Source: Oscillospiraceae bacterium
Lineage (GTDB): Bacteria > Bacillota > Clostridia > Oscillospirales > Ruminococcaceae
Assembly: GCA_022511485.1 (NCBI GenBank)
Contig: JAFLUJ010000003.1
Span: 1-34,621 of the forward strand
Direction: 5' to 3'
DNA: 34,621 nt
The position numbers and the translations under genes are program-made. The notes beneath the pieces were generated by a model. It saw only the letters and a list, made by a program, of their open reading frames with translations. It searched no databases and had not been told where the DNA came from. The first letter of the stretch is position 1. Each line of letters starts with the position of its first letter. Of this stretch, positions 12,156 through 24,368 are shown in pieces.

Positions 12156-12276
12156 CCTGTCCCAAGGCTGAGCCTTGACCCATGCCGTTGCACACTTTTT
12201 TCAGCAGAGTAAAATACAACACGGATATTTCATTTGCTCTCAAAAGCTACAAAATCATAAGCCGAGCCTTGACAGG
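12156..12276 (-). repeat. Structured repeat, copy 1, in the leader of the ABC operon
   Basis: Ends CCTGTC and GACAGG close a ~121-nt unit; the imperfect terminal inverted repeat extends inward (CCAAGGCTGAGCCTT against AAGGCTCGGCTT). On the minus strand it contains a hairpin ACTCTGCTG...AACGGCATGGGT that needs G-U pairs, and the self-complementary AAGGCTCAGCCTT. A second copy with the same core lies at 23203-23315. It falls wholly in the 5' untranslated leader of the solute-binding protein gene, ending about 16 nt before the ribosome-binding site, so it could act as an RNA regulator. The second copy's location inside a terminator loop argues for a mobile intergenic repeat. Confidence 0.6.
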
Positions 12277-12349
12277 ATAAAGTGTTAGTTTTGTGTCAAT
12301 TGCAAAAAATTTAGTTGTTCGTGTGGAAAAAATTCAGCGTTATATAATT

Positions 12350-12378
12350 ATTATACCAATCCGGCGATTATTTGTCAA
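12350..12378 (-). promoter_or_regulatory. Promoter of the carbohydrate ABC operon
   Basis: On the minus strand TTGACA (12378-12373), a 17-nt spacer and TATAAT (12355-12350) form a full consensus vegetative promoter. Transcription should start near 12342, giving a ~215-nt leader that holds the structured repeat. Nothing like a clear CcpA cre box was recognised. Confidence 0.85.
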
Positions 12379-12531
12379 GTATTTTTAGTGAATTTTGTTC
12401 AGAAAATCTCATTTTTTATGCCAGAAAATTATGGTTTTTTAATAGTTTTACCTTCATTGTCTATGGTTTTACTATATGATGTGATTGTGTGGTGTTATGC
12501 ATATCATATATTGATGTTTTGTCCGCAGATG

Positions 12532-22260: not shown

Positions 22261-23178
22261 ATGAAAAAAATTATTGCGTCCGTTGCCGCTCTTTCTATGT
22301 GTGCATTTATGCTCGCAGCCTGCGGCGATAAGACAACCGGAGACAGCACTCTGACAGAAAGCATTACTGCTGGACAAACAGCAGGAGAAAATAACGCAGC
22401 AGCAGATGACAGCTCGGACAGCGACGAAACAAAGGCGAAAACAGAATCCTCCGACGATGCAGCAGAAAATGATGCCGCTCAGGAAACAGAAGCAGAAAAG
22501 AGTGACAGCGGCGACGCTGCGGCGTCCTATGCTTCTCTTGATGAATTTATCAACTCAGATGACATTTTCGACCGCGAGGGAGAGCTTATTGACAGCGAAA
22601 ACACAAATACATACAAATTCATGAGCAGCCTTGATATCGAAAACGGCAACGGATTCTACATGGACGTTGAAGCTACGGACGGCAGCATGAAGGCAACAAT
22701 GGCAGCAGCAGAAGATCAGGTCTCCATAAATATGTCCGGTGATGGCGTGGATGTATCGTTCATCATAAAAGACAACACGATGTATTTGCTGGAATCCAGA
22801 TCCAAAAAAGCTGTTTACATGGAGCTTGACGAAGAGGCTATTGCTTCAAACATAGAACAGTACAGCGCCGGTAACATCCTTGGAAACGCAGTTGATGCTG
22901 ACATCTCAGATATTCCCGGAGCGGAGTGCTATGAAGTCAGCATCGGCGGCGATATCTATGCTTTTGAGATGGTGGATGATGCCGGTTTTCTTTATGATCC
23001 AAGCGGAGATCTCTGCGCAATGGTAAGCAGTCAGGCAGGCACAACTTATGCATTCATCATCAATGAATTTACTCTTAATGTTCCTGCAAATGCTTTTGAC
23101 ATCCCTTCCGATTATGAACTGGTCGATGCGAAATCATTGGATACGTCAGAGTTTTTTGAATTATTTGGTGCTTTTTAA
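22261..23178 (+). CDS. Lipoprotein 1 of a duplicated pair
   Basis: ATG 22261 has an AGGAG site 8 nt upstream. The 305-residue product has a signal peptide with lipobox LAAC (Cys 21), a long Asp/Glu/Ser/Ala-rich linker (~25-85) and a C-terminal domain (~90-305) with repeated beta-strand-like segments (YKFMSSLDIENGNGFYMDVE, TMYLLESRSKKAVYMELDEE). This fold pattern recalls LolA/LppX-like lipoprotein beta sheets, but I cannot assign a family. The paralogue 23607-24368 has the same signal peptide and domain but lacks the linker. It should face the outside of the membrane. Role unknown. Confidence 0.85.
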   Translation: MKKIIASVAALSMCAFMLAACGDKTTGDSTLTESITAGQTAGENNAAADDSSDSDETKAKTESSDDAAENDAAQETEAEKSDSGDAAASYASLDEFINSDDIFDREGELIDSENTNTYKFMSSLDIENGNGFYMDVEATDGSMKATMAAAEDQVSINMSGDGVDVSFIIKDNTMYLLESRSKKAVYMELDEEAIASNIEQYSAGNILGNAVDADISDIPGAECYEVSIGGDIYAFEMVDDAGFLYDPSGDLCAMVSSQAGTTYAFIINEFTLNVPANAFDIPSDYELVDAKSLDTSEFFELFGAF

Positions 23179-23202: not shown

Positions 23203-23320
23203 AGGACGGCAAAGGCTGAGCCTTTACCCATTCCGTTAGACACTCTTTTCGGAACGGGTAAAATACGACACGGAAGCTTAAAACTTCTGTACCGTTACCA
23301 GCTCAATGCCGTCCTTTTTT
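23203..23320 (+). terminator. Terminator of lipoprotein gene 1 containing the structured repeat, copy 2
   Basis: AGGACGGC (23203-23210) pairs with GCCGTCCT (23308-23315), followed by TTTTTT, so it still looks like a terminator, but its loop is ~97 nt. The loop holds the element also found at 12156-12276: AAGGCTGAGCCTT, ACCCATTCCGTT, ACACTCTTTT, and GGTAAAATACGACACGGA. In the duplicated unit the same terminator (24380-24406) has only a short loop, so the repeat was gained here or lost there. On the minus strand it folds into two hairpins, ACCCGTTCCG/CGGAATGGGT and ACGGTACAGAAG/CTTCCGTGTCGT. Confidence 0.65.
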
Positions 23321-23535: not shown

Positions 23536-23606
23536 AAGCGGTGCTGACTAAACACAGGGGTGTCTCCGTAAGGTCGGTACTACATATAGAACATAGGAGA
23601 AAAATT

Positions 23607-24368
23607 ATGAAAAAAATTATCGCGTCTATTGCTGCGCTTTCTATGTGCGCATTTATGCTCACAGCCTGCGGCAGTGACCCTGTAAATGACAGTCCGGCTG
23701 AAAACATTGTCGAAGCAGCAGCATCCTACGCTTCAATTGAAGAATTCATAAAAGCAGGCGACGCTTTTGACCATGATGGCAAGCTTATTAACGGAAAGGA
23801 CACCAATACATATACTTTTCTGAACAGTATGTATTCTGAGAACAAAAACAAATTTTATTTTGACGCTGAATTATCCGACGGCTCCACGAATATTATCATG
23901 GCAGCATCGGAAAATGCGATCTATGCGAATATGACATACGGCGATGACGTTATAATCAGCGTTATAAATCTGGAAGAAAAAAAGATGTATATGTTTGAGC
24001 CCGATTTAAAAATAGCTGTTTCTATGGAGATCAGTGATGAAGAAATTGCAGGATATGCAAAGCCGTTCAGCGTCGGGGATATGCTGGGAGAGAAATTTGA
24101 TACCAAAGTCTCCGATCTTTCAGATATGGTAAGATATAATGTGGATATCGGCGGTGAGATGCATACATTTGAAATGATAGACGGGGATGGGTTTCTTTTT
24201 GACAGCAGCGGAAAGATTCGCACTTTTTTGAGCAAAAATGCAAGCGCAGATACCCCTACATACATCTTCAACGAGTTCACTCTCAATATCCCGGACGGCA
24301 TTTTTGATATCCCATCCGATTATGAGATTGTAGATAAGGATGCATTAAAACAGTACCTTAGCAAATAA
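23607..24368 (+). CDS. Lipoprotein 2 of a duplicated pair
   Basis: ATG 23607 (MKKIIASIAALSMCAFMLTAC) has an AGGAG site 8 nt upstream and matches the start of the paralogue; the longer frame from 23541 would run through the conserved leader hairpin and is rejected. The 253-residue protein has a lipobox LTAC, almost no linker, and the same ~210-residue C-terminal domain as lipoprotein 1 (ASYASIEEFIKAGDAFDHDG, FNEFTLNIPDGIFDIPSDYE). The domains differ at many positions, so the duplication is not recent or selection differs, although the flanking noncoding copies are close to identical. Confidence 0.85.
   Translation: MKKIIASIAALSMCAFMLTACGSDPVNDSPAENIVEAAASYASIEEFIKAGDAFDHDGKLINGKDTNTYTFLNSMYSENKNKFYFDAELSDGSTNIIMAASENAIYANMTYGDDVIISVINLEEKKMYMFEPDLKIAVSMEISDEEIAGYAKPFSVGDMLGEKFDTKVSDLSDMVRYNVDIGGEMHTFEMIDGDGFLFDSSGKIRTFLSKNASADTPTYIFNEFTLNIPDGIFDIPSDYEIVDKDALKQYLSK

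Follow-up and report, generated by a model that had tools for sequence, protein, structure and literature searches.

Two copies of a structured repeat in one window

The window analysed here, a stretch of 34,621 nucleotides from an Oscillospiraceae bacterium, contains the same structured repeat twice, once in the leader of a sugar ABC operon and once in a terminator. This raises the question of whether the repeat is a regulatory RNA of that operon, as a first-pass annotation of the window had suggested, or a DNA element that has been inserted at both places. Both copies were located at the positions given in that annotation (12156-12276 for copy 1 and 23203-23315 for copy 2), and their likeness is far beyond chance (BLAST E down to 3e-17; profile E≤0.001). 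These bounds do enclose the repeat, but for both copies they also count in flanking inverted repeats; the repeat proper extends over ~12163-12258 in copy 1 and ~23211-23307 in copy 2.

Copy 1 is surrounded by an outer inverted repeat, CCTGTC (12156-12161) and GACAGG (12271-12276). Read on the plus strand, it begins with the H1 head palindrome CAAGGCTGAGCCTTG (12163-12177), the head common to most copies, and continues with the H2 body (12178-12225), in which ACCCATGCCGT (12178-12188) is able to pair with ACAACACGGA (12216-12225), with A-C mismatches among the plus-strand pairs. The tail module (12226-12258) is a degenerate H3 whose last part is GCTAC plus ~8 nt. Behind copy 1, 95 nt after the first head, lies a decayed second head, AAGCCGAGCCTTGAC (12259-12273, plus strand), which by its sequence appears to be the remnant of a tandem second unit and fits the tandem copies found elsewhere.

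Copy 2, also read on the plus strand, lies inside a terminator loop, as the annotation had it: an intrinsic terminator encloses the repeat with its arms AGGACGGC (23203-23210) and GCCGTCCT (23308-23315), the latter followed by a T run up to 23320. Between the arms are the H1 head palindrome AAAGGCTGAGCCTTT (23211-23225), H2 (23226-23259), with ACCCATTCCG (23226-23235) pairing with CGGAACGGGT (23250-23259), H3 (23265-23295), with ACGACACGGAAG (23265-23276) pairing with CTTCTGTACCGT (23284-23295), and the right end TACCAGCTCAAT (23296-23307), for which the family consensus is GTTACYTGCCTAA. This terminator lies between two tandem paralogous genes for putative lipoproteins (22261-23178 and 23541-24368; 47% identity over ~209 aa).

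A high-copy family within one genus

Both copies belong to a high-copy family. A BLAST search with copy 1 against its own genome, a 2.71 Mb draft in 363 contigs, gave 29 matches, the best of them apart from the query itself at E 3e-17. A sequence-only profile built from 25 copies (the 89-nt model R1) gave 58 matches in the window's genome at E≤0.001. In the genus sample, 13 of 21 species contain matches, with 1-71 copies each, and the other 8 have none. The repeat-rich genomes are G000, G001, G002, G007, G008, G009 and G013, and those without a match are G003-G006, G011 and G016-G018. A wider family sample of 299 genomes gave a match in 2 of 126 genera at E≤1e-5, under stricter filters that weak members could escape. 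As far as sampled, the repeat is restricted to one genus of Oscillospiraceae/Ruminococcus-like bacteria, and a pattern scan of named genomes found relatives in Oscillospiraceae bacterium HAN075, in Ruminococcus sp. MAGs and in an uncultured Clostridia MAG. A single related element was seen in a genome of another genus of the family (G097, contig L177, 1500-1566); it starts exactly at a probable stop codon, TAAGGCAAAGCCTTAACCCATATCG..., and this stop codon would be part of the stem of the head hairpin. Rfam gave no match above the gathering threshold for 12 sources and only chance-level matches at E≤5.

Anatomy and modularity of the element

The unit is ~95 nt long and forms three hairpins, of which the H1 palindrome is the most constant and H2 and H3 are less so. 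In plus orientation, the order is the head [CA]AAGGCTGAGCCTT[GT], ACCC, the body, which is the second hairpin and ends near ACGACACGGAA, a third hairpin, and the right end given above. The head is swappable, being either hairpin AAGGCTGAGCCTT or AGCGGGGAAGCCCCCGC, and the middle is also exchangeable. The window's genome contains 51 occurrences of the alternative head hairpin, AGCGGGGAAGCCCCCGCRGGC, at ≤2 mismatches, and in many copies this head stands before the same body. The body varies as well: some copies have a terminator-like module behind the head, and others, in the HAN075 genome, an unrelated hairpin body. At four HAN075 sites (L044 4774, L052 4081, L059 90 and L126 686), the same head is followed by a module TTATCTACCCCCACC...AGCCCCCTATCAAGGGGGCAG, which probably also belongs to the modular family. 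In G001 and its relatives, H2 has the stem TTATTG/CAATAA, as against TTACCG/CGGTAA or TTCCG/CGGAA in the window's genome.

Units are in places arranged in tandem with a period of ~91-98 nt. The ends of the element form at best AGGC...GCCT as a terminal inverted repeat, and no consistent target-site duplication was found among the copies. In G019 (contig L204), a tandem array of several diverged units, with the heads GCAGGCTGAGCCTGC, CAAGGCTAAACCTTG and CAAGGCTAAGCCTTG, lies after the stop of a homologue of the window gene 22261-23178, and the gene's own TGA stop is inside the first head.

Compensatory change in H1, with no strand assignable

The first-pass annotation had described a structured repeat with base-paired stems, and H1 does show compensatory change. 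Its outer pair is C-G or A-T and seldom mixed, with GCAGG/CCTGC and AAGGG/CCCTT among the other stems. When H1 arms are exchanged between copies, they fit each other less well than the two arms of one copy do (z above 6 and p<0.0003, both for the window's genome and for G007). The same arm swap gave p about 0.001 for H2 in the window's genome, an effect that is not seen in every genome, and the H3 co-variation was not significant in the window's genome. Paired cells made up 76% for the structure versus 26-43% for slid structures, and the covariation score of 0.098 compares with at most 0.075, none of 500 shuffles being as high. Pairs changed on both sides numbered three, which is not above shuffles. 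The compensatory changes in H1 could mean that the repeat has a function beyond mobility.

The annotation had further argued from G-U pairs that a minus-strand RNA is under selection. The raw numbers lean this way: in the window's genome, the fold energy is -26.6 kcal/mol for the minus strand versus -24.3 kcal/mol for the plus strand, and plus-strand A-C cells outnumber G-U cells in H2a (37 vs 9), H2b (64 vs 45) and H3 (118 vs 84). Against dinucleotide shuffles, however, the strand difference is gone (z -2.49 vs -2.19, p=0.29 in the window's genome; the other genomes are alike), and when partner letters are shuffled among copies the A-C excess is matched (27 vs 26.4 in H2; 60 vs 63.8 in H3), implying that it belongs to the consensus letters rather than to co-evolution. 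The minus-strand claim therefore fails on both counts, and it is also opposed by the orientation of the copies between co-directional genes, where plus exceeds minus (49 vs 27, p=0.015). Since the strands are equal in z-score and the A-C surplus equals its control, we treat the structure as a property of the double-stranded element; it is assignable to neither strand.

Copies crowd the ends of genes

The copies are dispersed and mostly intergenic, lying between ORFs called by a simple rule, which means that individual distances may be wrong. Strong flanking inverted repeats were found at 14 of 82 long copies, versus 0.88 expected when flanks are swapped among copies, and these 14 look as if placed in the loop of a hairpin or terminator. 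Among the 51 copies that lie downstream of a gene in the same direction, 12 start ≤2 nt from its stop codon (3.1 expected, p about 1e-4), an excess that comes mainly from G007 (8 vs 1.6 expected), with 3 vs 0.7 in the window's genome (p=0.04). Thirteen further ORFs extend into the element and terminate with the H1-loop TGA or shortly behind it. Genes for tRNA-Gln, tRNA-Ala and tRNA-Pro are each adjoined by an element after the CCA end with no gap, and in the window's genome an element lies 6 nt from the tmRNA gene. On the other side, 24 of 59 copies end ≤25 nt before the next start codon.

Elements directly after tRNA CCA ends (L033 193-240, L056 4009-3962 and L152 2030-2104) have an H2 stem CCCTTTCCG/CGGAAAGGG and then T-rich sequence, as if adopted as tRNA terminators.

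No strict target motif emerged from the left flank, where the one preference was for A at position -1. The exact abutment at stop codons and tRNA ends and the loop placement, which is far above expectation, favour some targeting, but survival, in place of targeting, could explain part of the gene-end excess.

Relatives have empty sites at three loci

We compared three loci with their homologues, namely the ABC leader, the copy 2 terminator and an amidase/radA locus, and found empty homologous sites at all three, which suggests a lineage-specific insertion at each. Copy 1 is located in the 5' UTR of the minus-strand gene for the sugar-binding protein, between promoter and start codon. The probable promoter of the ABC operon, a TTGACA...TATAAT-like block recognised by eye in orthologue leaders, lies at about 12340-12380 on the minus strand, upstream of copy 1, which would make copy 1 part of the transcribed 5' UTR. 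Orthologues of the binding-protein gene are present in 17 other genomes of the genus (77-84% identity), and their leaders conserve the promoter-like TTGACA/TATAAT block and the start-codon region, the 5' UTR being otherwise variable. None of the 17 leaders carries the element (the leader in L165 is cut short by a contig end), implying that copy 1 is an insertion peculiar to the window's species among those sampled.

For copy 2, homologues of the preceding gene, which are distant (34-46% identity, taking each genome's best match), are followed by plain intrinsic terminators, e.g. ACGTCCTGCG...CGCAGGACGTTTTT in G009 and G013. The amidase-like gene before radA has two tandem elements in the window's genome, and its ORF ends ...EFAKQG* inside the first; in the 15 other genomes with this gene the element is absent, and the gene ends ...EFAKSKV*, ...EFTEA* and similar.

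How the repeat may have spread

We consider it probable, at about 83%, that the repeat belongs to a genus-level family of small non-autonomous interspersed repeats, modular and ~95 nt long, similar to BOX and RUP. Its copies are dispersed, shorter than 200 nt, mostly intergenic and without coding capacity, and relatives have empty sites at the three loci. We infer that the family spread as DNA, moved in trans by some enzyme, and that copies would have survived where the insertion was harmless. At the 3' ends of ORFs, the TGA of the H1 loop can act as a new stop; within a terminator, the repeat would occupy the loop and leave the stem and the T run intact; and behind tRNA genes, the H2 stem together with the T-rich sequence may act as a terminator. 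Copy 1 would then be a 5' UTR insertion flanked by short inverted repeats and copy 2 an insertion in a terminator loop, and any effects on neighbouring genes would probably be local and incidental, exerted through mRNA structure. Our searches for the mobilising enzyme covered three domains, and a draft in 363 contigs could miss IS copies: the Y1 transposase domain (PF01797) had no matches in the window's genome and is present in 4 of 21 genus members, reverse transcriptase (PF00078) had no match in the window's genome, and the IS630-type DDE domain (PF13358) had no match in the whole genus sample.

Several other explanations have to be weighed against such a mobile family. The one suggested by copy 1 itself is a cis-regulatory RNA that would act on the minus strand in the leader of the sugar ABC operon, be it as a riboswitch, as an attenuator or as the target of an sRNA. 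The location in the leader of the sugar-binding-protein gene, which the first-pass annotation had reported, stands, the copy is indeed flanked by a conserved promoter on one side and the start codon on the other, and it can fold on the minus strand; the regulatory role drawn from this does not hold up, because none of the 17 orthologous leaders has the element and the other 50-odd copies adjoin unrelated genes, more often in plus direction. The folding shows no strand preference after shuffling and Rfam gave no match, and we regard this explanation as scarcely credible. A conserved riboswitch at copy 1 is for practical purposes excluded, although copy 1 may have an incidental effect on the expression of the operon. 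The case is a caution that a structured repeat inserted in an operon leader can mimic a riboswitch. Dispersal of REP/REPIN-like palindromes by a Y1 transposase (RAYT/IS200-like) would account for the high copy number, the hairpins, the intergenic sites and the insertion in hairpin loops, but the Y1 transposase is absent from the window's genome and from the repeat-rich G001, G002, G007, G009 and G013, and the architecture of head, body and tail is unlike a REP of 20-40 bp (PMC3733652), which makes this origin very improbable.

The placement at gene ends admits two further readings. The repeat could be a domesticated general module of mRNA 3' ends and intergenic regions, whose position and structure are themselves selected instead of being by-products of mobility, with hairpins behind stop codons and tRNA ends that would keep exonucleases out, end transcription or uncouple the translation of neighbours. 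The exact fit of copies against stop codons and tRNA CCA ends, the compensatory changes in H1, the wholly different hairpin head on the same body and the terminator-like body variants of some copies all agree with this, whereas at the three loci compared other species lack the site, both orientations occur, copies are found upstream of genes too, and several species of the genus have no match at all; we hold this module to be possible but doubtful. It is unlikely, in our view, that the repeat is a mobile element that targets gene 3' ends as such (stop codons, tRNA CCA ends and terminator loops), with an RNA intermediate or recognition of hairpins as a conceivable route. Such a 'gene-end homing' repeat would bring along a stop codon within its head hairpin, which would make insertion at an ORF end harmless.

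Comparison with known systems

The interspersed-repeat family preferred here adds a modular family in a Ruminococcus-like genus, and we found no earlier description of such a Ruminococcus repeat, nor of its head sequence, in the open-access literature. Its positional precision at gene ends makes it testable how short non-coding repeats reach stop codons, tRNA ends and terminator loops.

The family resembles BOX of S. pneumoniae and S. suis in having modular, exchangeable sub-sequences that are rich in hairpins, intergenic, present in many copies, limited to a genus and without an encoded enzyme (PMC3049150). The modularity takes the form of alternative heads and of middle modules that are exchanged while the tail or the head stays the same. 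We did not file the repeat as BOX because the modules, as described, differ: the element here has two alternative hairpin heads, an H2 body and an H3 tail, and its insertion sites are stop codons, the ends of tRNA genes and the loops of terminators. The likeness is one of architecture.

RUP is linked to an IS630 element, unlike the repeat here, for which the genus sample contains no IS630-type DDE transposase domain. RUP and SPRITE of S. pneumoniae share with our element the nature of structured non-autonomous repeats of ~100 nt, and SPRITE is terminator-like and located near gene 3' ends (PMC3049150). Unlike SPRITE, the element here sits inside existing terminators and is itself a terminator in some variants only. 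REP/REPIN sequences with their RAYT are likewise dispersed extragenic palindromes (PMC3733652, PMC3116915). The repeat described here differs from them in being longer, modular and built of three hairpins, in a genome without a Y1 transposase. The bcr repeats of the Bacillus cereus group, likewise in Firmicutes, are mobile, 100-150 nt long, dispersed and foldable as RNA, and our element is like them by general description, while belonging to another genus and having another architecture.
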